A stretch of 64,000 nucleotides of DNA from Verrucomicrobiota bacterium (lineage in GTDB: Bacteria > Verrucomicrobiota > Verrucomicrobiia > Chthoniobacterales > UBA10450), in the NCBI GenBank assembly GCA_019244415.1, contig JAFASN010000130.1, positions 1-64,000 of the forward strand. Direction: 5' to 3'. Position 1 is the first letter of the stretch. Each line of letters starts with the position of its first letter. The notes under the pieces are model-generated. The model was given only the letters and a program-made list of their open reading frames with translations. It had not been told where the DNA came from and did no database searches. Made by a program: the position numbers and the translations under genes. Positions 1 through 64,000 of this stretch are shown here, in pieces.

Positions 1-81
1 TTCTGGATCAATCTGCGTGCCGGTGTGCTACCTCGCCGGAACTGTTGCCCTCGCGGCGCTCTCAGGCGAAAATAGCCGCTC

Positions 82-1101
82 ATGCCTGACCGGCTTTTAA
101 CCGACACCATCGACGCCGAGCTTGTGCCCGGCGCGCGCAACGCCATCCGCGTTTGTCTTCGGGTAAAACCGGAAGAGCGCATCACCATTATCACGGACGA
201 GGAGACTTCCGAGATCGCGGCCGCGTTGCAGGCGGAAATCGAGGAAATCGGGTCAGATTTCCGCGTCTTTTCCCTCGAACATCATACCCGCCGTCCCATG
301 AAGTTCATGCCCGAGCCGATCCTGGAAGATCTCGCCACCTCACAGGTCTCGATTTTCGCCGCCCAATCGAAACCGGGCGAGCTCGCCGCGCGCATGGAGA
401 TGAGCGCGGTGGTTAATCGTCACCGCATCCGCCACGGCCACATGGTGAACATCAGCCGCGAGATCATGCTGGAAGGCATGCGCGCCGATTTCATCGCGGT
501 GGATGCGTTGAGCCAGCGCCTGGTCGAGCGCGCGCGCATGACTCAGCGCGTCCGTTGCCGGACGCCGTACGGCACCGATTTCGAGGCGGAGATTTCGCCC
601 ACACTAAAGTGGCTCAAAACGAGCGGCCTCATCACTCCGGATAAATGGGGCAACCTTCCCGGCGGCGAAATTTTCACCTGCCCTTGGAACACCAACGGAG
701 TCTTCGTCGTGGACGGCGTGGTCGGCGATTACCTTTGCGAGCGCTACGGCGATTTGCAAAGGACGCCGCTCACCATCGAGGTGGAAAATAATCGCATCCG
801 CTCACTCAAGTCCGAGAACAAGGATTTGCGCGACGATTTTCGCGAGTACACCAGCACGGACGAAAACAGCAACCGCGTGGGCGAATTCGCCATCGGCACC
901 AACACCGCATGTACTCACATCATCGGCAATATTCTTCAGGACGAAAAAATTCCCGGTATCCACATCGCATTCGGCCACCCCTACGCTGAGCACACCGGTG
1001 CAAACTGGATTTCCAAGACGCACATCGACTGCGTCGGACGTGATTTCGACATCTGGTTTGATGGCGAGCAAGTGATGAAGAGCGGTAAGTTTCTGATATA
1101 G
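82..1101 (+). CDS. M29 family (AmpS/PepS-like) metallo-aminopeptidase
   Basis: The 339-residue protein has the length and C-terminal signature of M29 aminopeptidases, cytosolic two-metal exopeptidases that release N-terminal residues from peptides. The family's metal site is visible near the C-terminus: GEFAIGTN (Glu268), then Glu288 followed by GIHIAFG (His294), and finally HID (His314, Asp316). The last 20 residues carry the typical IWFDGEQVMKSGKF ending (D-G-x-x-x-x-x-G). No signal peptide or membrane segment is seen. The ATG is the first start after a short upstream gap (1-81) in which I see nothing. The gene lies 8 bp before a small hypothetical gene and may be co-transcribed with it. 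Family assignment is by motif recognition; substrate preference cannot be told. Confidence 0.85.
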   Translation: MPDRLLTDTIDAELVPGARNAIRVCLRVKPEERITIITDEETSEIAAALQAEIEEIGSDFRVFSLEHHTRRPMKFMPEPILEDLATSQVSIFAAQSKPGELAARMEMSAVVNRHRIRHGHMVNISREIMLEGMRADFIAVDALSQRLVERARMTQRVRCRTPYGTDFEAEISPTLKWLKTSGLITPDKWGNLPGGEIFTCPWNTNGVFVVDGVVGDYLCERYGDLQRTPLTIEVENNRIRSLKSENKDLRDDFREYTSTDENSNRVGEFAIGTNTACTHIIGNILQDEKIPGIHIAFGHPYAEHTGANWISKTHIDCVGRDFDIWFDGEQVMKSGKFLI

Positions 1102-1109
1102 TACGGCGC

Positions 1110-1328
1110 ATGATCGCTGATGTGCGGGAAAGGCTTGATAAAATCCCGTTCGAAGCATTCGTGATCCGGCAGTCGGACGGGCGGCAGTATCCTGTGCCGA
1201 CTCGAGACCACGCGCATATTTCGCCGCGGGGAAATCGAATTGTCGTTTTTCTGGATGATGGCCCGGCAATCACCCTCGGTCCGCTTCACGTCAACAGCAT
1301 CGTCGATTTGCGCTCAACCGCCGGTTAG
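1110..1328 (+). CDS. small conserved hypothetical protein, 72 aa
   Basis: This is a short protein of the pattern RxxLxKxPFExFxIRxSDGRxYPVPxRDHxxxSPRGxxIVVF, ending in a beta-strand-like GPLHVNSIVDL. I recognise this shape as a small uncharacterised family common in Planctomycetota and Verrucomicrobiota; no function is known to me. There is no Cys or His cluster, signal peptide or membrane segment. It begins 8 bp after the peptidase stop and ends 7 bp before the next gene, so it appears to be the middle cistron of a three-gene run. Confidence 0.6.
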   Translation: MIADVRERLDKIPFEAFVIRQSDGRQYPVPTRDHAHISPRGNRIVVFLDDGPAITLGPLHVNSIVDLRSTAG

Positions 1329-1335
1329 CGGCGTC

Positions 1336-2532: not shown

Positions 2533-2540
2533 CGAGTTAT

Positions 2541-2891
2541 ATGCGAGACGAATATTCCTGGATTGAAATGTGCCCCGGCATTCGGCGTCGCACGCATGCT
2601 CACGGCCGGACCATGTACCAACAGATCGCTGAGCTCGACGCCGGAAGTACCATGCCGGCGCATTCGCATCCGCACGAACAGATCGTGCACATTCTTTCCG
2701 GGCGCATGAAACTCATCGTCGATGGGATCGCCCATGAGCTGAAGACCGGCGACTCGTTTTATCTGCCGAGTAACGTCGCGCACGGTGTGGAGACAATCGA
2801 GAGCACGCGCGTACTCGATACCTTCAGCCCGCCGCGCGAGGATTATCTCGCAGCCGACGAGTCATCTCGGGATGCGGATGTTCAGGACTGA
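2541..2891 (+). CDS. cupin-domain protein
   Basis: This is a single-domain cupin of 116 aa. Cupin motif 1 is [18 protein letters not shown] (residues about 41-58), with three His and one Glu as metal ligands; motif 2 is [15 protein letters not shown], with the last metal His. Such small cupins bind Fe, Mn or Zn and act as isomerases, dioxygenases or sensors; the exact role is not inferable. It starts 8 bp after the ATP-grasp-like gene, so it is probably its partner, and it overlaps the convergent kbl 3' end by 10 bp. Confidence 0.8.
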
Positions 2892-4066: not shown

Positions 4067-4159
4067 GCGGCAATCTCCGCGTGAACGTGGCGCGATGCAA
4101 AAAGCGCCGGCTGAGTACGGGCGTGGAGAAGCGGTGGAAAAAAGAAGAGGCTTGCGCTT

Positions 4160-6256: not shown

Positions 6257-8407
6257 TCAGTGCGTACCTGCTGGCTCGAGTTTCTCCCCGCCGGCCTCAG
6301 CTTCGGCGCGCTCTTTCAGTGCAGCTTTCCGGGAAAGTTTTACGCGTCCCTTGTCGTCAATGCCGATGCATTTGACCCAGACGATATCGCCCATTTTTGC
6401 CACGTCTTCCGTTTTGCGGACGCGGAAATCGGCTAGCTCCGAGATGTGTACCAGGCCGTCCTTGCCCGGAAAAACCTCGACGAACGCGCCAAATTCCTTG
6501 GTCGAAACGACGCGCCCTTGATAGGTCTGGCCAACCTCAATCTCGCGCGTCATCCCGCCGATGATTTCCTTCGCGCGCTTCATCGACTCGCCGTTGGTGG
6601 CGTAAATGTGCACCGACCCGTCGTCCTCGATGTTAATCTCGGCGCCGGTCTCCGCCACGATTCCTTTGATCGTCTTGCCGCCGGGACCGATGAGCGCGCC
6701 AATCTTCTCCGGGTTGATCTTGATTGTCTCGATGCGCGGGGCGTACTTGGAAAGCTCGGCGCGCGGTTTATCGATCGCCTGGTGCATGATCTCGAGAATC
6801 TTCATGCGCGCTTCTTTTGCGCGGTAGATTGCCTGAGCGAGGATTTCGCGGCTGACGCCGGGTAACTTTAAGTCAAGTTGGTAACCGGTCACGCCGTTCG
6901 CCGTGCCGCAAAGTTTAAAGTCCATGTCGCCGAAGTGGTCTTCCGACCCGATGATATCGGTAAGAAGTTCGTACCGCTTCAACTGCGCGCCATCGTACTC
7001 AGTCACAAGACCGATGGAAATCCCCGCGACCACATCCTTCACCGGCACGCCCGCATCCATCAGCGCGAGCATCCCGCCGCAGACGCTGGCCATGGAAGTG
7101 GAGCCGTTCGATTCCATCACTTCGCTGGAAATGCGAATGGCGTAACGGAACTCGTTCTCGCTTGGTACTACCGGCTCGAGCGAGCGCTCCGCGAGCGCGC
7201 CGTGCCCGATTTCTCGCCGGCTCGCGCCGCCGAAGCGGCCGGTTTCGCCGACGGAAAACGGCGGGAAATTGTAGTGCAGCAAAAAGCGTTTCGACTGCTC
7301 TCCACCGCCGTAGGCATCAATCATCTGCGCTTCTTCCATCGGCGCCAATGTGGCCAGGGCAAGGGCCTGCGTTTCGCCTCGCTGGAAAATAGCGGAGCCG
7401 TGCGCACGCGGGAGCACGCCTACTTCGCACGTGATCGGCCGCAAATCCTGGTAACCGCGCCCGTCCATGCGCTGGCGTTTCTCCAGCACGCTGATGCGGA
7501 ACGCCTTCTTCTGTACATAATCAAATGCCTGCGAGATGGCGAACTTGTCCGCCTCCGGGTGCTTCTCGAGCACGGCTTTCTTGACCTCCTCGCGCAACGT
7601 TTCCACCGCTTTCGCGCGAGCCACTTTGCCGGGCGTGTACAGTGCGGCTTCAATGCGAGACCCAGCGACCTGGTACGCGATCTCGAGCAACTCCGGATTC
7701 ACGCTCAACAGCGGCATTTCGCGTTTCGGCTTGCCCACCTGCGCGGCCAGCTCTTTCTGGATGCGGATCATCTCGCGGGCATGCACGTGCGCGAACTCGA
7801 GCGCCTTGATGAATTCCTCCTCCGGCAATTGATTTGCCGCGCCCTCGATCATGATGACGTCGTTTTCTGTGCCAACGTAAATCAGATCAAGGTCGCTCTC
7901 GATCCGCTGCGAGTGCGTCGGGTTTGCCACGAATTCGCCATTCACCCGGCCGACACGCACCGCGCCGATCGGCCCCGCAAACGGAATATCTGAAACGGTC
8001 AACGCAGCCGAAGCGCCATTGATCGCGAGAATATCGGGATCATTTTCACCGTCTGCGCTCAGCAGGATCGAAATCACCTGCGTGTCGTAAAAGTAGCCCG
8101 CCGGAAACAATGGCCGCAGCGGCCGATCCGTCATGCGCGACGTGAGCGTCTCTTTTTCCGTGGGCCGCCCCTCGCGTTTGAAATAGCCGCCCGGAATCTT
8201 GCCGGCTGCCGCCGCTTTCTCCCGGTAATCAACCGTAAGCGGGAAGAAATCCTGCCCTTCCTTGATGGTTGTGGCCGAGACCGCGCTCGCCATCACCATG
8301 GTATCGCCGCACGACACCACGACGGAACCATCCGCCAGCTTGGCGATTTTACCTGTTTCGATACTAATCTCGTGGGCGCCAATTTGCGCCGTGACCTTCT
8401 GTTGCAT
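6257..8407 (-). CDS. pnp: polyribonucleotide nucleotidyltransferase (PNPase)
   Basis: The full-length protein (716 aa) is the phosphorolytic 3'-5' exoribonuclease of the RNA degradosome. The order is: first RNase PH domain, helical linker, second (catalytic) RNase PH domain with [17 protein letters not shown] domain with [15 protein letters not shown], and C-terminal S1 domain with [26 protein letters not shown]. The ATG at 8407 is the family start ([19 protein letters not shown]). It follows rpsO on the same strand, the classic rpsO-pnp order; the 181-bp gap holds a long nested hairpin (see 8435-8521), a candidate autoregulatory leader. The iterated RAGTAC word that is dense elsewhere is sparse here. 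Confidence 0.97.
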
Positions 8408-11164: not shown

Positions 11165-11229
11165 CGCTCTGCCAGTCTCGCGCTGGCAACGAGGGTTGTC
11201 ATCCCGAGTGGAAAAAAAAAGTACTCAAT

Positions 11230-25042: not shown

Positions 25043-25626
25043 GCGGCGGACGCGTACTGCGCGAAGACCTGCCGGAGAGCTTCCGGATAGAGCGCGTGCT
25101 CGGCTTGCTGGATGCGCTTGTGCAATGAGTCGGGCGTGTCTGTTTCCAGCACCGGTACTTCGCGTTGAGCAATGATGTCACCATGGTCGATCAGTTCATC
25201 GACGTAATGCACGGTCACGCCGGTGATTTTTTCCCTCGCTGCAAGCGCTTGTTCCCACGCGCGCAATCCGGGGAATTTCGGAAGCAACGAAGGATGAATG
25301 TTAATGATCCGCCGAGGAAACGCGTTCAGTATCGCTTTTTTCAAGATCCGCATGAACCCGGCGAGTACGACAAACTCGGTGTTCGCTTCACGCAGTATTC
25401 TCACCAACTCCGCTTCGGCGCCTGGGTCGAGCCGAGTACGGAAATCACCTGGCGAGAGACAGGTATGCGGGACGCCGAATTCTCGCGCGATCTCCAGAAT
25501 GGGCGCGTTCTTCACATCGGAAATCACCGCCACCGGCGTTGCGGCGAGCCGGCCTTCACGAACGGCTTGGAGAATTGCGCGGCAGTTTGAACCTTTGCCC
25601 GAGCCAAGGATTGCGATCTTAACCAT
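25039..25626 (-). CDS. purN: phosphoribosylglycinamide formyltransferase
   Basis: This 10-formyl-THF-dependent GAR transformylase of purine synthesis has 195 aa from ATG 25626 (MVKIAILGSGKGSNCRAIL). The phosphate loop is GSGKGSN, the folate/catalytic region VVLAGFMRIL and NIHPSLLPKFPG (Asn and His of the catalytic triad), and the Asp is in HYVDELIDHGDIIAQ. The start overlaps the 3' end of the rfaE2-like gene by 8 bp, so the two are translationally coupled although their pathways are unrelated. Confidence 0.93.
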   Translation of the reverse strand: MVKIAILGSGKGSNCRAILQAVREGRLAATPVAVISDVKNAPILEIAREFGVPHTCLSPGDFRTRLDPGAEAELVRILREANTEFVVLAGFMRILKKAILNAFPRRIINIHPSLLPKFPGLRAWEQALAAREKITGVTVHYVDELIDHGDIIAQREVPVLETDTPDSLHKRIQQAEHALYPEALRQVFAQYASAA

Positions 25627-26098
25627 TCCGCATCTTGTCCAGTAACGCCGTGGTGGAGTACCCCGCTTGGAACGGGATGATCTCAACCTTCGCGCCGAAG
25701 TCTGCGACCATGCGCCGTTCTTCCCGATCAAGCGAGTCGATGTTGTAATCGCCGCCTTTCACATAGATGGCCGGTTGCGCCGCTTCGAGGAAGCGCGTCG
25801 CAAGTTCCTCATGAAAAATGGTCACGTAAGTGACCGATTCGAGCGCGGCGAGTACTTCGGCGCGGTCCCGTTCGGTATTGAGCGGCCGGCTTTCCCCTTT
25901 CAGCATACGCACGGAGGCATCACCATTGAGCCCGACGGCGAGCGCGTCTCCGAGCCGGCGCGCCGCGGCAAGGTAACGCACATGCCCGACGTGAAGAATG
26001 TCGAAGCAGCCGTTCGTTGCCACAAGCGATTTGCCTTGGGCGCGTAGCCGGCGGGACTCCTCGCGCAATTGAGAAAGATCGAGGATTTTCTCTCTCAT
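25619..26098 (-). CDS. rfaE2: D-glycero-beta-D-manno-heptose 1-phosphate adenylyltransferase
   Basis: This is a nucleotidyltransferase of 159 aa matching the C-terminal domain of HldE as a stand-alone protein. The adenylyl-binding motif is NGCFDILHVGHVRYL (HxGH), then NGDASVRMLKG, and the end-of-domain YVKGGDYN and YSTTALLDK. It activates heptose-1-P for ADP-heptose, an inner-core LPS precursor, so a Gram-negative LPS is expected. The kinase half (HldE N-domain) is not in the window. ATG 26098 overlaps the lipid-kinase stop as ATGA. Confidence 0.9.
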   Translation of the reverse strand: MREKILDLSQLREESRRLRAQGKSLVATNGCFDILHVGHVRYLAAARRLGDALAVGLNGDASVRMLKGESRPLNTERDRAEVLAALESVTYVTIFHEELATRFLEAAQPAIYVKGGDYNIDSLDREERRMVADFGAKVEIIPFQAGYSTTALLDKMRNG

Positions 26099-26988
26099 GG
26101 GGTGAACCCGACACAGTGCAGCGCTTTCGGCAGCAACTCGAAAACCGCTGGCTCATTGCCGATCATTTCACCATCTACGTTGAACCACATCCCGGGTCGC
26201 GAAGTAATCGCCACCTTTTGCGCCCGCCGGAAGATCACTGCATCGGAGCCAAGATGTCGCCCCAGCAAAATTTGCGCAGCGACGATGGCGAGCTCGGCCG
26301 GGCCGCGCTCCGGAATTAAGACGACATCGAGCAATCCATCGTCGATCTTCGCTTCCGGTGCGATCGGAACACCGCCCGCGACATAGCGGCCGTTCGCGAT
26401 GACGACGTTGTATAAATCAGTTTCCCAGCCGGGTGTATCATCCAGCGCGACGGTGGTGGTGTAGCCGCGCAGCTCGGAAAAGGCAGCCGCCGCCGAACGC
26501 AAGTACGCCAGCGGTCCCCACGTCTGCTTCATTTCGGGCGTAAGTTTTTCATCAACCACGCCGCTGAACCCGCCCGAGGAGACGTTCAGGAAATAGCGGA
26601 CCCGGTCACTCGTCACACGCACGAGGTCAACATCGCGCGTCTGGCCGGCGCGGATGATCTCGACCGCAGTTTCCACGTCGCCGGGCAGCCCAAGTGTGCG
26701 GGCGAAATCGTTGCCGGTGCCGAGCGGCACGATTCCGAGCGCGGTGCCGCAATGCTCGGTCGCGATTCCATTCACCACTTCATTGAGCGTGCCATCACCG
26801 CCGGCCGACACGATTAACTCCGCTCCTGCCCGCGCTGCTTCGCGCGCCGCCTGTTCGGCGTGTCCTGGCGCTTGCGTGAGGTGAAATTCGTCCGGTCGCA
26901 ACAGCTCTAATTGCCTGCGGATCGCATCAGTCTCTCTCACCGACCCGGCGATTGGATTGAGAATGACTGCGGTGCGCACGAACGACAC
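26095..26988 (-). CDS. diacylglycerol-kinase-family lipid kinase (DgkB/YegS-like)
   Basis: The 297-aa protein (GTG start) carries the ATP-binding motifs ILNPIAGSVRETD, VSAGGDGTLNEVVNG and IVPLGTGNDFARTLGLP of the DAGK catalytic family. The C-terminal beta-sandwich is present, with NVDGEMIGNEPAVFELLP near the end. Lipid kinases of this type phosphorylate diacylglycerol or sphingoid lipids in phospholipid recycling. It heads a coupled three-gene run with rfaE2 and purN. Its start overlaps the 5' end of the divergent DUF4912 gene. Confidence 0.85.
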   Translation of the reverse strand: MSFVRTAVILNPIAGSVRETDAIRRQLELLRPDEFHLTQAPGHAEQAAREAARAGAELIVSAGGDGTLNEVVNGIATEHCGTALGIVPLGTGNDFARTLGLPGDVETAVEIIRAGQTRDVDLVRVTSDRVRYFLNVSSGGFSGVVDEKLTPEMKQTWGPLAYLRSAAAAFSELRGYTTTVALDDTPGWETDLYNVVIANGRYVAGGVPIAPEAKIDDGLLDVVLIPERGPAELAIVAAQILLGRHLGSDAVIFRRAQKVAITSRPGMWFNVDGEMIGNEPAVFELLPKALHCVGFTP

Positions 26989-27748
26989 TCAGCCGCCGGA
27001 AGCGGCGAAGCAACGCTCCTTTTCGCTTGCCGAACGAGTAAGTGAATGGTTCAACGCGGGAATGCCAACACGGCCGGCTGATTTCGCCATCTCGAGCGAT
27101 CCCGTTCCCGCCCGAACTGCGGATTTGGCGGAGCAATCGTCTCAGCCGGAGCTGTACTCAGGGCCGGCGTCGCTCTTCGCCGTCGCGCGCAATCCCACCA
27201 CGCTGTTCGTTTGCTGGAATGTGAATTGGGCAGCGGTCTTTGCACACGCGCTGCCGGTGGATCGCAGAGCGCACGTGAAGTTGAGGTCGGCGCGCGGCGA
27301 GCGTACTCACCCTGTCGAGCCGCTGAGCGGAACTTGTTGCATTGGCGACTTGGAACCTGGAGACACGTACGAGATCGAGCTCGGTTTCATTCCTGCGCCC
27401 GAGCAATGGCAACCGATCACTTCAGCTCCGGCGGTGGAGCTGCCGCGGCAAACGATCGCGATCGACAGCGCGATCGTGGATGTTGCCAGCGTGCCGTTCC
27501 ATCTTGAATTTCAGGAGCTGGTGGAATTATTCGACGGTAACGGGAGGGTCGCCGAAGCGCTGGCGGAACTCGAGCGACGCGCGGCCGAGAGCGATCTCAG
27601 CGCCCGTGTGGATCAGGAGCCGGCGCGCGTACTCAAACTCTCCGCCGAAACGTTGCAGAAAATCACGGCCACGCGCGAAAAGCTAACGAGATCCCAACCG
27701 CGGCGCCTCGAGCGGGAGCAATGGCTCGGCAGCAGTTTGCACGGATGA
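26963..27748 (+). CDS. DUF4912-domain protein
   Basis: This is about 261 aa from ATG 26963. The centre (LYSGPASLFAVARNPTTLFV onward to CWNVNW) has the DUF4912 pattern (aromatic start, RNPxxxxVxWxV), followed by a beta-rich part with DLEPGDTYEIELGFI. The C-terminus is helical and charged (EFQELVELFDGNGRVAEALAELE). The role of DUF4912 is unknown to me. The start is uncertain: ATG 26963 overlaps the divergent lipid-kinase gene by 26 bp, and the in-frame ATG at 27062 is an alternative. It ends 5 bp from the convergent Crp/Fnr gene. Confidence 0.6.
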   Translation: MTAVRTNDTQPPEAAKQRSFSLAERVSEWFNAGMPTRPADFAISSDPVPARTADLAEQSSQPELYSGPASLFAVARNPTTLFVCWNVNWAAVFAHALPVDRRAHVKLRSARGERTHPVEPLSGTCCIGDLEPGDTYEIELGFIPAPEQWQPITSAPAVELPRQTIAIDSAIVDVASVPFHLEFQELVELFDGNGRVAEALAELERRAAESDLSARVDQEPARVLKLSAETLQKITATREKLTRSQPRRLEREQWLGSSLHG

Positions 27749-27753
27749 GCTGA

Positions 27754-28476
27754 CTACATCTGGCCAAGGTGCTGCTCGAGCAGCTTCTGCATCTCGCGCG
27801 GCTTGGTAAGAATGATGGAGTTCCCTTTGACCTCGAGCAGTTCCTGGGCGCGCAATTTGGCGAGAGTACGGGAAAGCGTTTCGCTGGTGCTGCCCATTTC
27901 GGCGGCAAGTACACGCTTGGTGCGGTCGAGGCGAATTTCGCAGTCCTTTTGCGGGAGCGGTCGCGGGCAACGTTTCAGGAGCCAGTTGGCCAGTCGCGTT
28001 TCCATGTCTTTGAGGGTGAGATCGTCGAGAAGTCCCACGATCACGCGCAGGTGCTGGCTCATTGAGCCGAGCATGCGCAGCGCGAGCTCCGGCCGTTTAC
28101 GCACAAGCTCCACGAACTCCGTTTTAGGGACGAGCAACACTGTACTTTGCTCAGTGGCGCGAGCGTTGGCTGGATAGCCCGTTTCGGACGCGAGCGATGC
28201 TTCCGCGAACGATTCCACAGGGCGGAAAAGGTAAATCGTCTGTTCTTTCCCCGCTGCGCTGACGCGATGAACATTGATCGCGCCTCTCTGCACAATGTAA
28301 AAACCTTCCGAGCGTGCGCCTTCGCGAAACAGGTACTCACCTTTGGCCAGCTGCTTGGTCACGGCGAAGGACGCGATGGCATCGATGTCGCTCTGCGCCA
28401 GGCCGACAAAAAGCTGGCAGCTGCGTAATGTACTCGCGACGACAATCTGCCGGAAGCCGCTCCCGTCCAGTGGCAT
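27754..28476 (-). CDS. Crp/Fnr-family regulator, likely nitrogen-oxide/denitrification regulator (Dnr-like)
   Basis: The 240-aa protein has a cNMP-type sensor barrel (YLFREGARSEGFYIVQRGAIN), dimer helix (about 130-160) and a C-terminal winged helix with EMGSTSETLSRTLAKLRAQ. The recognition helix carries E-x-x-S-R, the set that reads TTGAT-N4-ATCAA in FNR and DNR. The N-terminal Fe-S cysteines of FNR are absent, as in DNR/NnrR proteins that sense NO through haem. It is the last gene of the nos operon, 24 bp after DUF2249, and a perfect matching palindrome lies before the first gene (35045-35058), which suggests autoregulation. Sensing of NO rather than another signal is inference. Confidence 0.8.
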   Translation of the reverse strand: MPLDGSGFRQIVVASTLRSCQLFVGLAQSDIDAIASFAVTKQLAKGEYLFREGARSEGFYIVQRGAINVHRVSAAGKEQTIYLFRPVESFAEASLASETGYPANARATEQSTVLLVPKTEFVELVRKRPELALRMLGSMSQHLRVIVGLLDDLTLKDMETRLANWLLKRCPRPLPQKDCEIRLDRTKRVLAAEMGSTSETLSRTLAKLRAQELLEVKGNSIILTKPREMQKLLEQHLGQM

Positions 28477-28500
28477 GGGCAGAAGCCTAACGCGCCGCGG

Positions 28501-28731
28501 CTATTCGTCGCGCCAAAAATGCGTCAGCCAGCCGCCGGAGAGCCTTTCCACCCGCGAGCGAAATCCTTCGCCGGCCAGCTTCTCGATAAGCGGCGCGGGA
28601 AGAAACGGCGACGAAATCGTGAGTCCCTCGCCGGGCGCGAGCGCCTCAATGGCGGCGCGTATTTCGGGTAACGGCTCCGTTCCCTGCGCGATGATCGGCC
28701 GCACATCGAACATTTTGAATTTCACCGTCAC
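28501..28731 (-). CDS. DUF2249-family small protein
   Basis: This is about 76 aa from GTG 28731, which overlaps the nosY stop as GTGA. The pattern KMFDVRPIIAQGTEPLPEIRAAIEALAPGEGL with FLPAPLIEKLAGEGFRSRVERL matches DUF2249, a TusA-like alpha/beta domain (D-x-R-P near the N-terminus). DUF2249 proteins often sit in denitrification or NO-related loci; the function is unknown. The TusA active-site Cys is not present. The location between nosY and the regulator supports a role in the nos system. Confidence 0.7.
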   Translation of the reverse strand: MTVKFKMFDVRPIIAQGTEPLPEIRAAIEALAPGEGLTISSPFLPAPLIEKLAGEGFRSRVERLSGGWLTHFWRDE

Positions 28732-29501
28732 CCTTCCCACTGTTTCAGCCTCGCACTGGCGAAGTGAGTGAGCGCTCCGGCCCAGACCAGCGCGATGAAT
28801 CCAAACCAGAGAGCTGCATGCGCGATCCACCACGCCGCCAGCGGCGTCGTGCCGGCTGCTTCCGCGGGAATTTGCTGCAAGGCGAAAAGCGCTTCGATGC
28901 GAAAGGCGTCGAGCGGATTCAACATCAAGCACGCCGTCCAGATCTCAGGAACGCGCTGAAGTACAGGCCACCGCGCAGCGAAGAGCGCCACCAAATCAAT
29001 GCCGACGAGCATTAGCAGCCATGCGCTGACGGCGGTGATGAGCGCCTGCGCACGATCGCGCGCGAGAAAGCCGCAAGCGAGGCCAAGGGCGACGAAAGCC
29101 GCCGCCAGCAGAAGCGTTTGCGAAAACAGCAGCGCGAGCGAAGCGAGCGTTGCTCCTGCGAAGAAAGCCGGAACAAACAACAGCAGCAGTACCGAACCGA
29201 AAATCGAGAAGAGCGCAAAAAATTTGCAGATCACAAACGTGCGGCGTCGTAAAGGCTGACTCAACAGGAGCGGCCATTCCTCGCGTTCGCCTTGCGCGCT
29301 GCTCACTCCCGCCAGCAACGAGAACAGCGAGACAAAGTACAGCGCGACCTGAAGAATGAAGAACCCGGTCGCGTTTGCATCCTCGGCAAACAGCAGGGCA
29401 GCCACTCCGCCCAGCAGCGCCAGAGCCGAGAACACCTGAAAATAACGGTTGATTACGACCGAGCGAAGCTCGCGACGAAACACCGCACGCGAAACATGCA
29501 T
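28728..29501 (-). CDS. nosY: NosY, ABC-type permease of the nitrous oxide reductase copper-site machinery
   Basis: The 257-aa protein from ATG 29501 (MHVSRAVFRREL) starts 1 bp after the nosF stop. It has about six membrane segments, beginning YFQVFSALALLGGVAALLFA, and the SSAQGEREEWPLLLSQPLRRRTFV cytoplasmic coupling region typical of ABC-2 permeases such as NosY. NosDFY move a sulfur species or copper-related substrate used to build the tetranuclear CuZ site of NosZ. An alternative start at 29564 would overlap nosF by 62 bp and is unlikely. Confidence 0.87.
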   Translation of the reverse strand: MHVSRAVFRRELRSVVINRYFQVFSALALLGGVAALLFAEDANATGFFILQVALYFVSLFSLLAGVSSAQGEREEWPLLLSQPLRRRTFVICKFFALFSIFGSVLLLLFVPAFFAGATLASLALLFSQTLLLAAAFVALGLACGFLARDRAQALITAVSAWLLMLVGIDLVALFAARWPVLQRVPEIWTACLMLNPLDAFRIEALFALQQIPAEAAGTTPLAAWWIAHAALWFGFIALVWAGALTHFASARLKQWEG

Positions 29502-29502
29502 G

Positions 29503-30219: not shown

Positions 30220-30235
30220 CCCGCTTGCTCTCCCT

Positions 30236-32358: not shown

Positions 32359-32413
32359 GGCCAAATCGTTCGTCGCAGCTGGAGCGGGGGTACTCCAGCC
32401 GGGCAAACGGTCA

Positions 32414-34507: not shown

Positions 34508-34524
34508 TTCATTCTCCTTCTTGA

Positions 34525-35010: not shown

Positions 35011-35044
35011 TGGAGCAAAATGGGAAGTCCGCCCTCACCGCGCT

Positions 35045-35058
35045 TTGATGCAGATCAA
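35045..35058. promoter_or_regulatory. perfect FNR/DNR box TTGATGCAGATCAA
   Basis: This 14-bp palindrome, TTGAT-GCAG-ATCAA, matches the FNR/DNR consensus exactly. It sits in the 103-bp divergent gap between the azurin-nosZ operon and the second YbdK gene. For the nos operon, CATTTT at 35022-35017 on the minus strand lies where a class II FNR promoter would place its -10, putting the start of transcription at or next to the azurin ATG. The operon's own Crp/Fnr protein has the matching E-x-x-S-R helix. Regulation of the divergent gene is possible but I see no good -10 there. Confidence 0.85.
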
Positions 35059-35113
35059 CCCCGAGCGAATTTCCTGTCGAACTGCGCTAGTGTGCGGGTT
35101 CAGTTCTCCTCTT

Positions 35114-36241
35114 ATGCAAGGTCGCCAGCACGTTTTCACTCTCGGCATCGAGGAGGAATTCCAGATCATCGATCCGGATACGCGCGAGCTGCGTTCGCAC
35201 ATCCAGGAAATCCTGGCCGACGGCAAGATGCTGTTGCGCGAGCACGTGAAGCCGGAGATGCACCAGTCCGTCGTCGAGCTGGGCACGGAAGTTTGCAGTG
35301 ATACCAGGAGCGCGCGCCAGCAGGTCGTGAAACTGCGCAGCGGGCTGGCTGGATTGGCTGAACGGCACGGTCTGAAGATCGCGTCAGCCGGCACGCATCC
35401 GTTTTCGCATTGGATGGATCAACAGATCACGGCAGACGAGCGCTACGCCACCATCGTGCAGGACATGCAGCAAATCGCGCGTGCCAATCTCATCTTTGGC
35501 CTGCACGTTCACGTGGGCATTCCGGATCGCGAGACCGGCATCCAGGTGATGAACCAGGCGCGCTATTTCCTGCCGCACTTTTACGCGCTCTCCACGAACT
35601 CCCCGTTCTGGCTGGGCCAGAACACCGGGCTCAAGGCCTACCGCCAGATGATTTTCGAGCGTTTCCCGCGCACGGGCGTGCCGGACACGTTTGAAAGTCT
35701 CTCTGAGTACGAAGATTACCTCAAGCTGCTCGTCTCCACGGGCTGCATCGATAACGCTAAAAAAATCTGGTGGGACGTTCGTCTCCACCCGTTTTTCGAC
35801 ACGATCGAGTTCCGCATCTGCGACGCGCAATCACGCGTGGACGACACCCTTGCACTGGCCGCCCTCATGCAAGCTGTCGTACTCAAGCTGCACAAATTCC
35901 TCCGCCAAAATGTCACCTTTCGCATGTACCGGCGGCGGCTGATCGACGAAAACCGCTGGCGTGCCGGGCGCTACGGCCTCGACGGGAAGCTGATCGATTT
36001 CGGCCGCGCCTGCGAAGTAGATGAGCGTGATCTCATTCACGAAATCCTGCATTTCGTTGCGCCGGAAGTGGACGAACTGGGCAGCCACGCGGAGATGGCG
36101 CACGTCGAGAGAATTCTACAGGAAGGGACCGGCGCCGACCGCCAGCTGCGTGTCTGGGAGCAAACCGGGAATATCCGAGCCGTCGTGGACCACATCGTCG
36201 GCGAGACGTATGAAGCGCTCGAGCTTGGCCGCGAAGCGTGA
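35114..36241 (+). CDS. YbdK-type carboxylate-amine ligase (GCS2 family), copy 2
   Basis: The ligase has 375 aa from ATG 35114 (MQGRQHVFTLGIEEEFQI), the start that aligns with the paralogue at 10040-11164; a reading from 35045 would begin inside the FNR box. The two copies are closely similar throughout (for example LHVHVGIPDRE, LSEYEDY, GCIDNAKKIWWD, DAQSRVDDTLA are shared), so this is a recent duplication or a paired function. It is divergent from the nos operon and overlaps the SCO gene by 32 bp. The biochemical product is unknown; gamma-glutamyl-amide or thiol formation is the family expectation. Confidence 0.85.
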   Translation: MQGRQHVFTLGIEEEFQIIDPDTRELRSHIQEILADGKMLLREHVKPEMHQSVVELGTEVCSDTRSARQQVVKLRSGLAGLAERHGLKIASAGTHPFSHWMDQQITADERYATIVQDMQQIARANLIFGLHVHVGIPDRETGIQVMNQARYFLPHFYALSTNSPFWLGQNTGLKAYRQMIFERFPRTGVPDTFESLSEYEDYLKLLVSTGCIDNAKKIWWDVRLHPFFDTIEFRICDAQSRVDDTLALAALMQAVVLKLHKFLRQNVTFRMYRRRLIDENRWRAGRYGLDGKLIDFGRACEVDERDLIHEILHFVAPEVDELGSHAEMAHVERILQEGTGADRQLRVWEQTGNIRAVVDHIVGETYEALELGREA

Positions 36242-37214
36242 GACGCGACAGCAGAATCGACCTGGCCGGCGTGAAGCCGACCGCGCGCCTGTCGGCGTTG
36301 TTGTCTCTGATAAGAGGCGGTTCCGCGTAACCGTCGGCGCGATTCTTTTGGTCGCGGCGCTTTCGGTACTCAGCGGCTGCAATCGTGGAAAGCAGGAGCC
36401 GGCGCCCCGTACTTACCATGTGCGCGGCATCGTGCGGGGGATTTCGCCAGATCGGACAACGATCGATATTGAGCACGAAGCGATTCCGGGATTCATGCCA
36501 TCAATGACCATGCCGTTTAGCGCGGCCGATCCGAATGAGGTGGCGCATTTCAACGCCGATGACGCGGTCAGCTTTGAGCTGCTCGTGACGGAGAAGGAGG
36601 CGACCGTGAAAAATATCAGGCGCATCGCCGCCGCCGAAGTACATCTGCCCACGCCCTCGCCGCCGGTTCCAAGTACGAGCACGATCACGAGCTTGAGCCC
36701 AAGGTTAAAAGAAGGCGATGAGATGCCGGTCTTCACGCTCACCAACGAGCGCGGCGAAAAGATCACGCTCGATTCTTTCCGCGGCCGGCCGTTCGTACTC
36801 ACGTTTATTTACACGCGCTGCCCGCTGCCAAATTTTTGCCCTCGCATCTCGAGAGATTTTGCAGCGCTGCAGGATGCGATTGAGCACGGCGCAGGGCCGC
36901 TGGCCGAGACACGACTGCTGAGCATTACTCTCGATCCGAAGTTTGACACGCCGCAGGTGCTGAGCGCCTACGGCAAAAGCGAAAATGCCGACCCCAAAAT
37001 CTGGAGTTTCGCAACTGGCGATTCCGCGGAAATCGATGCGCTTACGCAAGCCTTCGCTGTGTACCGGCAGAACGAAGGGGGGACGCTGAGTCACGGCCTC
37101 GCGACCGCGCTTGTCACCTCCGGCGGAAAAGTCGCGAAGCTTTGGCGTGGCAACGGCTGGACACCGGCCGAAGTTACCGCCGCGATCGCGCATCTAAACG
37201 GCGCCGGGGACTAA
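36210..37214 (+). CDS. SCO/SenC copper chaperone with N-terminal CusF-like domain
   Basis: This is about 334 aa from ATG 36210 (start uncertain; TTG 36225 is an alternative). A lipoprotein-like anchor (TVGAILLVAALSVLSGC) is followed by a copper-binding domain of the CusF type (VRGIVRGISPDRTTIDIEHE, IPGFMPSMTMPF with the Met motif). The thioredoxin-like SCO domain follows, with FIYTRCPLPNFCPRIS and a His in GTLSHGLATALV. The metal Cys pair is CX5C (C-PLPNF-C) instead of the common CX3C. SCO proteins load CuA sites of cytochrome oxidase; NosZ also has CuA, and the neighbouring nos operon makes it the probable client here, which is inference. No nosL is present. Confidence 0.8.
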   Translation: MKRSSLAAKRETRQQNRPGRREADRAPVGVVVSDKRRFRVTVGAILLVAALSVLSGCNRGKQEPAPRTYHVRGIVRGISPDRTTIDIEHEAIPGFMPSMTMPFSAADPNEVAHFNADDAVSFELLVTEKEATVKNIRRIAAAEVHLPTPSPPVPSTSTITSLSPRLKEGDEMPVFTLTNERGEKITLDSFRGRPFVLTFIYTRCPLPNFCPRISRDFAALQDAIEHGAGPLAETRLLSITLDPKFDTPQVLSAYGKSENADPKIWSFATGDSAEIDALTQAFAVYRQNEGGTLSHGLATALVTSGGKVAKLWRGNGWTPAEVTAAIAHLNGAGD

Positions 37215-37387
37215 GTACGCCGGCTGAGATTCGAGTCTTTAGAAAACAAATCAATCGGCTGCGGCTGCAAACCTAAAGCAAGTAGGCAGACTTCCGTACT
37301 CATCCGCGAGTCGTGGCGTTATTCGGCGAACGAGACCCGAAGCGCGCTGTGGAAGTACAAGCAACGATTGCCCATCAATGGTTTGTA

Positions 37388-37415
37388 TTGCACATATAGT
37401 ATAACTACATATGAT
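37388..37415 (+). promoter_or_regulatory. PadR promoter with operator palindrome
   Basis: A -35 TTGCAC (37388-37393) and -10 TATGAT (37410-37415) are 16 bp apart. The spacer holds an interrupted palindrome, CATATAGT-ATA-ACTACATATG (37393-37413), a suitable PadR-type operator, so repressor and RNA polymerase would compete. Transcription would begin about 37422, next to the ATG at 37424, which has no Shine-Dalgarno: a possible leaderless mRNA. Confidence 0.6.
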
Positions 37416-37423
37416 AATCCAAT

Positions 37424-37756
37424 ATGCGTGACCGCGAGCTGAAGAAAGGAAGTGCGGAGCTGCTCGTGCTTTCGCTGCTGGAGCATCGGCCGCGGCACGG
37501 CTACGAAATCGGGCAACTGATTGAATTGCGTTCACACGGTGCGCTCCGATTTAATGTCGCCTCACTTTACCCGCTGCTTTACCGGCTGGAGAAACGCGGC
37601 TGGATTCGTGGCCGCTGGATCGAGAAAGCCGGGCAACGCCGCCGCCGTTTCTACCGGCTGACGCCAGCGGGCAGGCGCATGCTGGCGCAACAGCGCGAGG
37701 GCTGGCTCAAATTCGTCGAGGCCATCGGCCGTGTCGCTGCAATCGAGTATGCCTGA
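37424..37756 (+). CDS. PadR-family transcriptional repressor
   Basis: This 110-aa winged-helix protein has the PadR pattern: KKGSAELLVLSLLEHRPRHGYEIGQLI, then ASLYPLLYRLEKRGWIRGRW (recognition helix and wing) and RRRRFYRLTPAGRRML. It resembles the short PadR regulators that precede acidobacterial-type duplicated permeases, and its stop overlaps the ADOP permease start by 8 bp. It probably represses its own operon through the palindrome at 37393-37413 and releases on binding a small ligand, which is unknown. Confidence 0.9.
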   Translation: MRDRELKKGSAELLVLSLLEHRPRHGYEIGQLIELRSHGALRFNVASLYPLLYRLEKRGWIRGRWIEKAGQRRRRFYRLTPAGRRMLAQQREGWLKFVEAIGRVAAIEYA

Positions 37757-40448
37757 TTTCAAGGAAGAGATTCGGCGCAGGCTGGCTCCACTGGAGCTCA
37801 CGCCAGCGCGTGAGGCGGAAATTACCGAAGAGTTGTCGCAGCACCTCGAAGAAGAGTATGAGCACGCCCTAAGTACGGGGGCAACGGCAGCGGAAGCAAA
37901 CGGCGCTGTACTCAAGGAGTTGAACAGCACAGACCTGTTCGCTCGGGAATTCCAAGGTGGGGAGCGCCGCGACGGGAAGGATCGCGATGTTCTCGGCCTA
38001 TGGAGGAGAAGAAGCGCATGGGCAGATATTTTGCAGGATTTGCGCTTTGCCTTCCGCACGCTCGGAAACAATCCCGGGTTCGCCATCGTCGCCGTGCTTG
38101 CGCTGGCGCTCGGCATTGGCGCAAACAGCGCGATTTTCAGTGTGGTCAACACGTTGCTGCTCCGGCCGCTGCCGTACAAGAATGCGCAGCAGCTTGTCAT
38201 GATATGGGAAAACGCCGCCCATCTCGGATTTTCAAAGAACACGCCATCGCCGGCGAATTTTCTCGACTGGCAGAAGCAGAACACGGTTTTCGAGGACATG
38301 GCTGCGTTTGCCGAGCGCAGTTTCAATCTTACCGCTGCGGGACAACCTGAACGGCTCGACGGCCGCCGCGTGTCCGCAAATCTGTTCAGCTTGCTCGGCA
38401 TGAAGCCGATCGTTGGCCGCGACTTCGTGCCACAGGATGATCAGCCGGGAACAAAGGTCGCGCTTCTGAACGAAACCCTGTGGAAGGGCCGCTTCGGCGG
38501 GGACCCGGATGTCGTCGGGCGCGCGATTATGCTCAACGGCGAAAGCTACACTGTGGTCGGTGTGATGCCGGGCAGCGTGCGTTTACCTGCGTTCGGTAAC
38601 TGGCGCGACCAGGTCTGGGTGCCGCTCGCGTTTTCATCCGCGGAAGCGGCAGATCGGGGCGACCATTTTCTCCAGGTGATCGGGCGCATGAAACCCGGCG
38701 TCACCCTGGATAAAGCGCAGGCGGAGATGGAAACGATCGCCGCGCGGCTGGCGCAGGAATATCCTAAGTACAACACAAGGATCGGCGCGGTCGTGCGCCC
38801 GCTGCACGAAGAGATTGTCGGCAACATGAAACCGGCGCTGCTTGTGTTATCAGGGGCAGTTGCGTTCGTGCTGCTGATTGCGTGCGCGAATGTGGCGAAT
38901 CTTCTGCTCGCCCGCGCAGCCGTGCGGCAAAAGGAGATCGCGCTGCGCCTCGCCCTCGGCGCTGACCGGCTTCGACTGACCAAGCAGTTGCTTGTGGAAA
39001 GTGTAATGCTTTCGCTGCTCGGCGGCATCGCTGGCCTGGCGCTCGCCTACGCGGGGCTTCAGCTGCTGGCGCGCTTCATTCCGCAAGACATCGCCCAGCC
39101 GGGGCTCATCGGCATTAATGCTAACGTACTCATTTTCACCTTTGCCGTGGCGATAGTCACGGGACTCGTCTTCGGCCTGGTGCCAGCCACTCAGGCGTCC
39201 CGCTTCAACCTAAGCGACACGTTAAAGGAAGGCGGCCGCGGATCCGGCGCGGGCGGTCCCGGGAAACGGCTGCGCCGCGTACTCGTCATTACTGAAGTGG
39301 CCGTGTCGTTCGTTTTACTCATCGGTGCGGGGTTGCTCATCAACAGCTTTATGCATTTGCGCAATCTCAATCCCGGTTTTCGCGTCGATCATTTGCTCGT
39401 CATGAATGTGGACTTAGCCGAAGTGAAGTACCCGGATAACGCGCGGCGCACCGCGTTCTTCGACGAAGTGGTCAGGCGTGTGCGAGTGCTGCCGGGCGTG
39501 CATTCCGTCGCAGTGGCAGGGAATTTGCCGCTCACGTACAACGGCGATTCAATGAGCATCGCAGTGGAAGGCATTCCTGATCCGCCGCCGGATCAATGGC
39601 CGGACGTGATCTATCGCGCGGTCGGTCCCGGTTATTTCAGTACGATGGGAATTCCGCTGGTGCGCGGGCGCGATTTCAATGACGAGGACAAGATGGACTC
39701 CACCCTGACGGTGGTGGTGAGCGAAAGAACCGCGGACCATTATTGGCCCAGCGAAAACCCGATCGGCAAACGCCTGAAACCCGGCTCGAGTACATCGGCA
39801 ACTCCGTGGCGCACCGTCATCGGAGTCGTCAAAGACGTGCGGCAAAACGATTTCATCGCTGAGCCGAAGATGCAGATGTACTTTAGCTATCGGCAACTCA
39901 CCAACCTCGTTCCGAACGCGCTGGTCGTACGGACGACAGTCGAGCCGTTGAGTGTAGCCGCATCAGTGCGCAACGCCATCTGGGCGGTGGACAAAGACCA
40001 GCCCGTCTCGAACATCGATTCGATGGAACACGTCGTTGCCACCGCCCTCGCGCGGGAACGGTTCAGCATGCTGCTGCTCGCGATTTTCGCTGGAATCGCG
40101 CTTGTCCTCGCGGCCGTTGGTATTTACGGCGTGATGAGTTACTCCGTCGCGCAACAAACGCAGGAGATCGGAATCCGCATAGCTCTCGGGGCGAAGCGCA
40201 GCGACGTATTAAAGATGACGGTTGCGCAAGGACTGAAGCTCGTCGGGATTGGGCTCGCGTGTGGCCTGGCCATCGCCATTGTACTCACACGCGTGATGGC
40301 GACTTTGCTCTTCGGCATCAGCGCGACTGATCCGGTCACGTTCCTCAGCATCACGCTCGTGCTGCTCGCGGTGGCGCTGCTGGCCAGCTACATCCCGGCG
40401 TCGCGCGCCACGAAAGTGGATCCAATGATGGCGCTACGCGCGCAGTGA
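37749..40448 (+). CDS. ADOP-family duplicated ABC permease (MacB/FtsX-like)
   Basis: This is an 899-aa permease from ATG 37749 (MPDFKEEIRRRLAPLELTP). An N-terminal HAAS-like helical domain (REAEITEELSQHLEEEYEHAL) is followed by two MacB_PCD-FtsX modules. Each has a membrane helix near its start (FAIVAVLALALGIGANSAIF), a large periplasmic part, and an FtsX core (LLIACANVANLLLARAAVRQ; the second at GIALVLAAVGIYGVMSYSVA). The order matches the acidobacterial duplicated orphan permeases that lack their own ATPase. It may export a toxic or antibiotic molecule; the PadR gene regulates it. I see no ATPase gene beside it. Confidence 0.9.
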   Translation: MPDFKEEIRRRLAPLELTPAREAEITEELSQHLEEEYEHALSTGATAAEANGAVLKELNSTDLFAREFQGGERRDGKDRDVLGLWRRRSAWADILQDLRFAFRTLGNNPGFAIVAVLALALGIGANSAIFSVVNTLLLRPLPYKNAQQLVMIWENAAHLGFSKNTPSPANFLDWQKQNTVFEDMAAFAERSFNLTAAGQPERLDGRRVSANLFSLLGMKPIVGRDFVPQDDQPGTKVALLNETLWKGRFGGDPDVVGRAIMLNGESYTVVGVMPGSVRLPAFGNWRDQVWVPLAFSSAEAADRGDHFLQVIGRMKPGVTLDKAQAEMETIAARLAQEYPKYNTRIGAVVRPLHEEIVGNMKPALLVLSGAVAFVLLIACANVANLLLARAAVRQKEIALRLALGADRLRLTKQLLVESVMLSLLGGIAGLALAYAGLQLLARFIPQDIAQPGLIGINANVLIFTFAVAIVTGLVFGLVPATQASRFNLSDTLKEGGRGSGAGGPGKRLRRVLVITEVAVSFVLLIGAGLLINSFMHLRNLNPGFRVDHLLVMNVDLAEVKYPDNARRTAFFDEVVRRVRVLPGVHSVAVAGNLPLTYNGDSMSIAVEGIPDPPPDQWPDVIYRAVGPGYFSTMGIPLVRGRDFNDEDKMDSTLTVVVSERTADHYWPSENPIGKRLKPGSSTSATPWRTVIGVVKDVRQNDFIAEPKMQMYFSYRQLTNLVPNALVVRTTVEPLSVAASVRNAIWAVDKDQPVSNIDSMEHVVATALARERFSMLLLAIFAGIALVLAAVGIYGVMSYSVAQQTQEIGIRIALGAKRSDVLKMTVAQGLKLVGIGLACGLAIAIVLTRVMATLLFGISATDPVTFLSITLVLLAVALLASYIPASRATKVDPMMALRAQ

Positions 40449-62160: not shown

Positions 62161-62260
62161 TCAGCAGAGACGAAACGAGGCAAACCTTAGGCGTAAATTC
62201 AGGGAAAAGCGATTCGCGGCTGACCAAGGCTCTGTTGTGAGCGAAACCGATCCCCATCCT

Positions 62261-62352
62261 GTCATTCCGAGCGCAGCGGAGCGGAGCCGAGGAATCCCGA
62301 CAAGTGACCGGACAGCTACGCTACGGGATCCCTCGGCTTCGCTCGGGATGAC
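62261..62352. repeat. palindromic repeat that supplies the next gene's start codon
   Basis: The left arm begins GTCATTCCGAGCGCAGCGGA (62261) and the right arm ends GGGATGAC (62352); GGGATCCCTCGGCTTCGCTC in the right arm pairs with the left AGCCGAGGAATCCC. This is a widespread bacterial REP-type element in form. The ATG of the following methyltransferase gene (62348-62350) is the ATG in the terminal GGGATGAC. Confidence 0.7.
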
Positions 62353-63361
62353 GCTATTGGGGGAAATCATCCGCGAAGAAATTGTTGCGCACGGCCCGAT
62401 GACCTTTGCCCGTTTCATGGAACTTGCGCTTTATCACCCACAGCACGGCTACTATGGCAGCGGGCAGGCGCAAATCGGTCGCGGCGGCGATTTCTTCACC
62501 AACGTGAGCGTCGGTGCGATTTTCGGCAAATTGCTCGCGGCGTACTTTATTGAATGGTGGCAAAAGCTGGGGCGGCCTGACGAGTTCACCGTCCTCGAGC
62601 AAGGCGCGCACGACGGGCAATTTGCCCACGACGTACTCAGCGCTCTCGCTCGCAGCCAGTGCTTTGAATCCATTCGCTACTTGATCGTTGAGCCATTCCC
62701 GATCTGGCGCGAACGCCAGCAGCAAAAACTCGCGACTTTTTCCGGGAAATGCTTCTGGGCCGAATCAATCCAGGAGGTCGAGCCGTTCATCGGCATTCAT
62801 TTTTCTAACGAGCTCTTCGACGCCTTACCTGTTCATTTGCTTGATGGGGAAGGCGGCGAATGTCTTGTCTCTTTCGATGGCGGTCGTTTTCATCTAGATA
62901 AGTACGCGTCCCGCGAAGAAAGTACAGACGCGCCAAAACTCATGCGCGAAATTGCGGGGAAACTTTCGCGCGGCGTTATTCTCGTCATCGACTACGGCTA
63001 CACCCGCGAGCAACTGGCCGCGCGCACGGAAACTTCGCTGCGCGTCCGCGCCCGACATCGAGTTCTCGCGTCGCCGTTCGCTGAAATCGGTCAGGCCGAC
63101 ATCTCAGCGCATGTAAACTGGACCGCTCTCATCGAAGCGGCGCAATCAGCCGGCGCGCAGCTAATTGGCCTCGAGGATCAACATCACTTTATCACCGGGA
63201 TTCTGCGCGAGCTGGTGCCAGCGGCTGACGTGCAACATTTCTCCGCGTCAGACAAACGCGGCCTGCAAACATTGCTCCACCCAGAAATGCTCGGCCGGAG
63301 CTTCCACGCGCTTGCGTTGGGCAAAAACTTCTCCTCTCCTCTTGCCGGTTTCGGTCCGTAA
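62348..63361 (+). CDS. MidA/NDUFAF7-type SAM-dependent methyltransferase
   Basis: The 337-aa enzyme begins at ATG 62348 (MTLLGEIIREEIVAHGPMTF). The DUF185/MidA pattern is clear: FARFMELALYHPQHGYYGSG, RGGDFFTNVSVGAIFGKLLA, VLEQGAHDGQFAHDVL (SAM loop), HFSNELFDALPVHLL and VILVIDYGYTREQL. The eukaryotic relative methylates an Arg in respiratory complex I; bacterial substrates are unknown. A longer reading from 62237 would translate the palindromic repeat and is not credible. The start codon is part of that repeat. Confidence 0.88.
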   Translation: MTLLGEIIREEIVAHGPMTFARFMELALYHPQHGYYGSGQAQIGRGGDFFTNVSVGAIFGKLLAAYFIEWWQKLGRPDEFTVLEQGAHDGQFAHDVLSALARSQCFESIRYLIVEPFPIWRERQQQKLATFSGKCFWAESIQEVEPFIGIHFSNELFDALPVHLLDGEGGECLVSFDGGRFHLDKYASREESTDAPKLMREIAGKLSRGVILVIDYGYTREQLAARTETSLRVRARHRVLASPFAEIGQADISAHVNWTALIEAAQSAGAQLIGLEDQHHFITGILRELVPAADVQHFSASDKRGLQTLLHPEMLGRSFHALALGKNFSSPLAGFGP

Positions 63362-63451
63362 TCTCCGGTCAGTACGCTGAAGCTGTTGGTGCCTAACCTT
63401 TGCTCTGGAAAAAACGGAAGATTGGCCTCACATTCTCCAGCCAGGTTGATC

Positions 63452-64000
63452 ATGGGCGATCCCGTTAATCCCGACGTCACGGCAGTACAACGCGCTGAGC
63501 TGCCCAATGGTGAGCGCGCGGCCACTCAAACACCGGAACGGGCTGATCTCCGGCCGGAAAGTATTCAGGATGCAGTCATTCGGCTGGCGGGCAACTCTCA
63601 GGATGGTATCCAGACGGCCGGCGCATTTCTCGCGCGGCTCGCCGGCCGCAGCGACCAGGAAGTCATGACGTACATGACGATTCCCGCGACCATTTCCGGC
63701 GGCCCGTCCATATTCCAAGTACGCATCGGCTCGGGCGAAGTACTTTCACCGGGCGATGAGGCAGACTTTCTCGTCGCGTTTTACCAGCATAGCTATCAGG
63801 ACCACGTCAGCTTCCTCAAAGAAGGCGGCGTGCTGCTTTATGATTCGGACAACGTTGAGCCAAATCTCGAAGACAAGCGCTACGTTTATGTAGGCGTCCC
63901 GGTCACCGGGCTCACCGTCGAGGCGCTCGGTGGCACCGCCAAGGATAAAGGCAAAAACATTTTCGTACTCGGGCTGATCGCGAAGATTTTCCATCTCGAT
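63452..64000 (+). CDS. 2-oxoacid:ferredoxin oxidoreductase alpha subunit (KorA-like), 5' part
   Basis: This partial gene runs off the end: 183 codons from ATG 63452 with no stop. The start is MGDPVNPDVTAVQRAELPNG. The gamma-type domain is visible: VIRLAGNSQDGIQTAGAFLA, DQEVMTYMTIPATISGGPSI, QVRIGSGEVLSPGDEADFLV and KEGGVLLYDSDNVEP. In fused KorA proteins this domain precedes the pyruvate-oxoglutarate alpha domain. The complex oxidatively decarboxylates 2-oxoglutarate (or another 2-oxoacid) to acyl-CoA with ferredoxin as acceptor. A KorB gene is expected just outside the window. Confidence 0.8.
   Translation, partial: MGDPVNPDVTAVQRAELPNGERAATQTPERADLRPESIQDAVIRLAGNSQDGIQTAGAFLARLAGRSDQEVMTYMTIPATISGGPSIFQVRIGSGEVLSPGDEADFLVAFYQHSYQDHVSFLKEGGVLLYDSDNVEPNLEDKRYVYVGVPVTGLTVEALGGTAKDKGKNIFVLGLIAKIFHLD

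Follow-up and report, generated by a model that had tools for sequence, protein, structure and literature searches.

The stretch analysed here, called the window, comprises the first 64,000 nucleotides of contig JAFASN010000130.1 (assembly GCA_019244415.1). Its host is a metagenome-assembled genome of a soil Verrucomicrobiota, placed near Chthoniobacterales by its pnp matches, with the nearest named record 91% identical by pnp. The assembly has 134 contigs totalling 3.15 Mb and is 92.57% complete and 2.17% contaminated. The hexamer RAGTAC (GTACTY on the other strand) is iterated throughout the window, with 213 copies (about 1 per 300 bp) among 299 GTAC tetranucleotides and with 106 and 107 copies in the two orientations. 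AAGTAC was found 103 times (19.2 expected from base composition) and GAGTAC 110 times (28.1 expected). A hand count in the original prediction, giving 71 GTAC and 54 copies of the word for part of the window, was reproduced almost exactly, and the three intergenic places that it named (11,218, 37,215 and 37,297) carry the word. The features referred to below are as follows.

1–64,000, both strands: the iterated word RAGTAC/GTACTY, 213 copies by word count
25,100–40,448: the stretch counted by hand; 71 GTAC and 55 RAGTAC/GTACTY on recount
11,219–11,226: intergenic AAGTACTC, both orientations of the word overlapping on a shared GTAC core
37,213–37,218, plus strand: AAGTAC just past the end of the open reading frame (ORF) at 36,021–37,214
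37,296–37,301, minus strand: intergenic GTACTC, i.e. GAGTAC on the minus strand, in its preferred form TGAGTACG
6,257–8,407, minus strand: pnp, with 2 copies of the word against 1.3 expected

The window also encodes a duplicated permease of the ADOP family (37,731–40,448), a family named from Acidobacteria, here in a member of the Verrucomicrobiota. An Rfam scan of the window gave no match at the gathering score.

Excess and form of the word

In the 57 window genes predicted with a simple ORF caller, synonymous codons were shuffled within each gene, a null model that preserves both the protein and the codon use. The word occurs 197 times in these genes, as compared with 60.4 ± 6.2 after shuffling, and each of the six combinations of orientation and reading frame exceeds its expectation, by factors of 1.85 to 8.1, in line with the earlier remark that the word lies in every frame and on both strands. 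Codon or codon-pair bias is thereby ruled out, including the bias confined to one frame which the original prediction had named as a possible explanation. A further 17 copies lie in 4,946 bp of intergenic DNA; the genic and intergenic counts together exceed 213, presumably because called genes overlap.

About 1.43 of the 3.15 Mb of the host genome was read letter by letter. Five loci consisting of N throughout (L110, L111, L127, L145 and L167) were dropped, and counts for the whole genome are from searches for single words. The 1.43 Mb contain 3,498 copies of the word (2.45 per kb). In a 649-kb sample, AAGTAC (721 vs. 231.9) and GAGTAC (756 vs. 277.6) were the two top-scoring hexamers of all under the synonymous shuffle, and the intergenic density was 2.51 per kb (206 in 81.9 kb). 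A Markov model had been proposed for scoring the word; with the codon shuffle used in its place, the score is far from zero. When the window was scored with a Markov model of maximal order, the top 5-mer was AGTAC (254 vs. 182.4) and RAGTAC was not among the top 6-mers, but this model is less telling since the parts of the word enter into its expectation.

The word, which is itself non-palindromic, has a strict core, AGTAC: within TRAGTACR, any other base at one of these five positions reduces the enrichment to at most 1.24-fold. Enrichment is graded by the base that precedes the core (G 8.2-, A 5.1-, T 3.3- and C 1.1-fold) and by the next one upstream (T 7.1-, A 4.0-, C 2.4- and G 1.8-fold), the best form being TGAGTACG (7.9-fold, 199 vs. 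25.3), with GGAGTACG at 1.1-fold. With respect to the graded overrepresentation of mismatched forms known for uptake sequences, the flanks are graded and the core is not. Flanks farther out carry little information beyond the neighbouring bases, and a longer or bipartite motif was therefore set aside. A palindromic 8-mer was likewise dismissed, since RAGTACTY (330 vs. 121.5, 2.72-fold) is no more enriched than RAGTAC in general (2.88-fold). A strict core with graded flanks resembles a site that would be read by a DNA-binding protein.

Distribution of the word in the host and its relatives

Gaps between neighbouring words (n = 2,101 in 893 kb) have a median of 248 bp and a mean of 394 bp, in agreement with the spacing of a few hundred bp first estimated by eye, and no regular, periodic or paired pattern was seen. 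The word is as dense between genes (2.36 per kb, 453 in 192 kb) as in coding sequence (2.46 per kb). The coding and opposite strands of genes carry 939 and 938 copies, and this equal loading of both strands led us to dismiss a function at the RNA level. The excess in all frames, together with equally dense intergenic copies, indicates a force acting on the DNA and not on RNA or protein.

Over 38 loci, on draft contigs without a chromosome map, orientation did not depart significantly from 1:1 (p = 0.095). It was not correlated with GC skew (p = 0.70) and was correlated weakly with TA skew (rho = -0.41, p = 0.011). The distribution along genes does not differ significantly between the orientations (p = 0.086). 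Chi and segregation words, such as those of the FtsK-orienting polar sequence (KOPS) type, are likewise short, overrepresented and non-palindromic, but they are polar with respect to replication, and the lack of a clear orientation bias across the draft contigs speaks against a polar word of either type. The SlmA site of Escherichia coli, a palindrome containing TGAGTAC, is rare, unlike the thousands of half words found here.

Coverage of the genome is nearly random and even (dispersion index 1.32 over 737 genes). Across 74 loci the median enrichment is 3.03-fold, and only three loci fall below 1.5-fold. One of these (L180, on contig C84) is a defence island with 3 copies against 10.7 expected (0.28-fold), with a Type III modification enzyme, PADLOC defence matches and a PD-T4-6/mad6-like kinase; the others are L135 (0.98-fold), which encodes a phage-type DNA methyltransferase, and L222 (1.08-fold). 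L140 (on C44), with matches to phage terminase, primase and integrase, lies below the median at 1.76-fold. In this genome, the density of the word may help to distinguish part of the acquired DNA from the resident DNA. The suggestion that strongly conserved genes resist the word did not hold: genes with 75% or higher identity to a relative contain 124 copies against 39.0 expected (3.18-fold), whereas those without a match in a small set of relatives are enriched 2.84-fold. The two genes given as examples, pnp and rpsO (0 copies against 0.0 expected in the latter), have expectations so low that neither is informative.

Several of these properties might be accounted for by a word of genome architecture, i.e. 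a binding site for a protein of the nucleoid or chromosome, with selection favouring a dense occupation of the resident chromosome. The even coverage, the graded flanks, the scarcity in the defence island, and the absence of either excess or lack outside genes are all in keeping with it. However, no such protein was identified, the word has no polar arrangement, and congeners lack it as an iterated word, whereas a protein of the chromosome would usually be conserved; we regard this explanation as unlikely.

The enrichment is private to the host. GAGTAC occurs 4,075 times in its genome (1,197 for the reversed control word) as compared with 259 to 524 times in each of ten congeners, and TGAGTAC 1,893 times as compared with at most 174 in each of 82 other genomes of the family. 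Among 387 genomes drawn from the phylum, the host has 1.29 GAGTAC per kb and the next genome (G123) 0.55, while four (G139, G193, G208 and G404) have none. None of 80 related loci around pnp was enriched (largest z 1.5), and many were depleted. Intergenic DNA of congeners contains 0.12 words per kb (5 in 40.2 kb). GTAC as a whole stands at 0.44 times expectation in congeners and at 1.18 times in the host. The host thus differs in two respects: the avoidance of GTAC has gone, and there is a specific excess of the AGTAC word. No word of their own stood out in small samples of the congeners beside CG-rich words. Two further observations concern these genomes: besides the four without GAGTAC, only a handful of copies are present in G042, G041, G054 and others, while the reversed control numbers hundreds in these genomes, and the level of GAGTAC can vary within one genus. 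The scan of 80 loci also gave single words at z 6.6–7.6 in L029, L048 and L080.

The choice of codons shows the same difference. Of 425 Glu-Tyr pairs in the host, 302 are spelled GAGTAC, as compared with 26 of 131 in relatives (odds ratio about 10), Lys-Tyr is spelled AAGTAC in 194 of 255 and 14 of 105 (about 21), and Val-Leu is spelled GTACTY in 514 of 1,932 and 15 of 673 (about 16); these ratios partly reflect the avoidance of GTAC words in the relatives.

Since the word is private to one draft assembly of 134 contigs, an artefact of assembly or base calling was considered. In 46 genes aligned to relatives, the amino-acid identity at 98 words was 0.758 as compared with 0.768 overall, and in the 37 closer pairs it was 0.861 as compared with 0.839. 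Amino acids at the words are thus as conserved as elsewhere, which makes sequencing error unlikely, and three of the 74 loci in the same assembly lack the excess; we consider an artefact extremely improbable. The aligned relative had the same word in 7 cases and differed by one base in 28, with the differences spanning positions 2 to 6 of the word and comprising several kinds of change. Of these 28, 27 fall in the GTAC core and one in the flank, but the direction of the changes is unsure because congeners avoid GTAC. Neither a systematic error of reading nor one directed kind of mutation would be expected to give this pattern of differences.

A sequence-specific process of mutation or repair that makes the word without any use for it is also very unlikely, in our judgement. 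Several neighbours of TRAGTACR are somewhat depleted (0.31–0.83-fold at many core positions), as such a process might leave them, but the one-base differences are of several kinds and spread over five positions, and the spelling of Val-Leu appears to differ between host and relatives beyond the usual mutational context bias.

Methyltransferases and the comparison with HIP1

For the highly iterated palindrome HIP1, a ratchet of methylation and repair was reportedly proposed by Elhai. Applied here, a methyltransferase acting on GTAC or RAGTAC and coupled with mismatch repair would drive near-miss sites step by step towards the word. HIP1 and the alternate HIPs resemble RAGTAC in being short words that run through genes and spacers at a similar order of density, with sporadic changes of word, and the exceptional HIPs turn up sporadically, each accompanied by a methyltransferase of its own (excerpts of PMC4390886). 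The core owes most of its enrichment to the full context (GTAC 1.18-fold, RAGTAC about 2.9-fold), as it does in HIP genomes. The host has seven matches to PF01555, as compared with six in one, four in another and at most three in the rest of 28 other genomes. In addition, RAGTACTY, which contains RAGTAC on both strands, is known as an N6-methyladenine (6mA) motif of Pseudomonas syringae (excerpt of PMC11850005). However, that motif is a palindrome with 300 occurrences, whereas here the palindrome is no more enriched than the half word; the HIPs, likewise, are 8-bp palindromes tied to methyltransferases, whereas RAGTAC is non-palindromic.

A scan for methyltransferase motifs covered less than half of the host genome; two of the host enzymes were considered as the cause. 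The first (C134:72014–72814), about 8 kb beyond the window, is close in sequence to PDB 2zie, and its nearest homologue is 77% identical. Homologues, sought among the 387 genomes of the phylum, occur in 8 other genomes with 0.05–0.29 GAGTAC per kb, against 1.29 here. The second, on C9 (L117:4576–6369), lies ahead of a reading frame for a nuclease of the BglII family (204 aa) and another short frame, and has homologues in 17 other genomes with 0–0.44 GAGTAC per kb. Since both have homologues in genomes that are not enriched, they were rejected as the cause and the link to methylation is weakened, although the homologues may differ in target. Moreover, a ratchet starting from a methylated GTAC core should change the flank, yet nearly all the one-base differences, whose direction is unsure, lie in the core. 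We regard a HIP-like origin as unlikely, but it and a chromosome-binding protein are the main competitors of the reading given below.

Other observations concern the modification genes themselves. Beside the C134 methyltransferase (L178:7298–8814, corresponding to C134:71298–72814) lies a protein of 239 aa without a family match, perhaps a putative unclassified restriction enzyme. A third methyltransferase (287 aa) has a reciprocal best hit in a congener (69.7% identical). The Type III enzyme of L180 and an HsdM-like gene in L226, the latter recognized by motif, contain no copy of the word. A restriction site is expected to be avoided by its host, whereas RAGTAC is in excess. GTCGAC, avoided in the host only (27 vs. 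152.1 expected in the 649 kb; 78 vs. 74.8 in congeners), shows the usual footprint of a restriction system, which is the opposite of the RAGTAC pattern. CTGCAG is low too (50 vs. 189.2 in the host and 42 vs. 71.8 in congeners).

A possible self-DNA tag and a second iterated word

The original prediction, that this is an iterated word of genome-wide extent comparable with HIP1 or with uptake sequences, holds, except for the supposed resistance of conserved genes. Of the explanations considered, we tentatively favour that RAGTAC, best as TGAGTACG, may be a self-DNA tag resembling an uptake sequence. A protein, presumably part of the competence machinery and predicted to act as a DNA-uptake receptor, would read RAGTAC in double-stranded DNA; tagged DNA of the same population, repeatedly replacing resident DNA, would raise the copy number, and the word would accumulate by biased uptake and recombination. 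ComEC, the competence DNA channel, is encoded in the host and in 17 of 19 other genomes searched; being common to most relatives, it permits uptake without singling it out.

Published uptake sequences are described as non-palindromic and without chromosome orientation bias (excerpts of PMC1939737), and as having a short essential core and densities of up to 5,918 in 2.4 Mb (excerpts of PMC3630211). The DNA uptake sequences (DUS) of Neisseriaceae and the uptake signal sequences (USS) of Pasteurellaceae share with RAGTAC, as far as these sources go, i) a non-palindromic word in thousands of copies on both strands with no orientation bias, ii) a short essential core with graded flanks, and iii) lineage-specific variants, and the density of RAGTAC is similar to that of the densest among them. 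By this comparison, the lack of a palindrome and of orientation bias, the graded flanks, the lineage-specific words and the density appear to fit uptake sequences best. The scarcity of the word in the L180 defence island was also counted in favour of a tag.

A second iterated, non-palindromic word surfaced in the scan of 80 related loci, at L053 (JAGBIL010000020.1) of Opitutales bacterium RGIG9148 (G437). This octamer, CGGGAACG, occurs 5,434 times in the 2.0-Mb genome as compared with 91 copies of the reversed word, and is iterated more strongly than RAGTAC. Among 57 genomes including G437, the count exceeds 5,000 in six, is 1,362 and 546 in two others, and is at most 464 in 49, which places the word in an Opitutales clade. 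Iterated, non-palindromic, lineage-restricted words with unrelated sequences are thus present at least twice in the phylum. A private word in the host and an unrelated one in the Opitutales clade, reminiscent of DUS dialects, were counted for the tag.

Several points weigh against it. No receptor or other protein reading the word was identified, and the sole sign of competence is ComEC, which most relatives carry too. The strict core of 5 bp is shorter than the published 9–10 bp and would discriminate weakly against foreign DNA. Mismatched forms of uptake sequences are said to be gradually overrepresented and the sequences themselves commoner than expected in non-coding DNA (excerpts of PMC1939737), the latter being perhaps not a defining property; here one-mismatch forms of the core are not enriched (at most 1.24-fold) and there is no intergenic excess (2.36 per kb vs. 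2.46 in coding sequence). The intragenic bias of uptake sequences is reported to depend on orientation (excerpts of PMC2346458), whereas no significant difference along genes was seen between the two orientations of RAGTAC (p = 0.086). Finally, among the sampled genomes the word is limited to one species and not shared by a clade. A literature search by titles and the beginnings of abstracts found no mention of RAGTAC as an iterated word; since it covered 25 of the 1,351 papers that contain one of the strings, this says little about absence.

Few groups are known to have iterated words, whose origin is a matter of dispute. Because the congeners avoid the core of RAGTAC, relatives can be compared to study how a word of this kind is gained, and the second word in the same phylum provides a replicate. 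If the words are tags, a view that we hold with still less assurance than that of RAGTAC as a tag, Verrucomicrobiota may have evolved self-DNA tags more than once, with the unrelated words RAGTAC and CGGGAACG and independently of Neisseriaceae and Pasteurellaceae; on the same reading, and with the same reserve, a word whose core is avoided by congeners may have become the most enriched hexamer within one genus. Were the uptake tag true, sequence-marked exchange of DNA would have arisen in a soil phylum as well.

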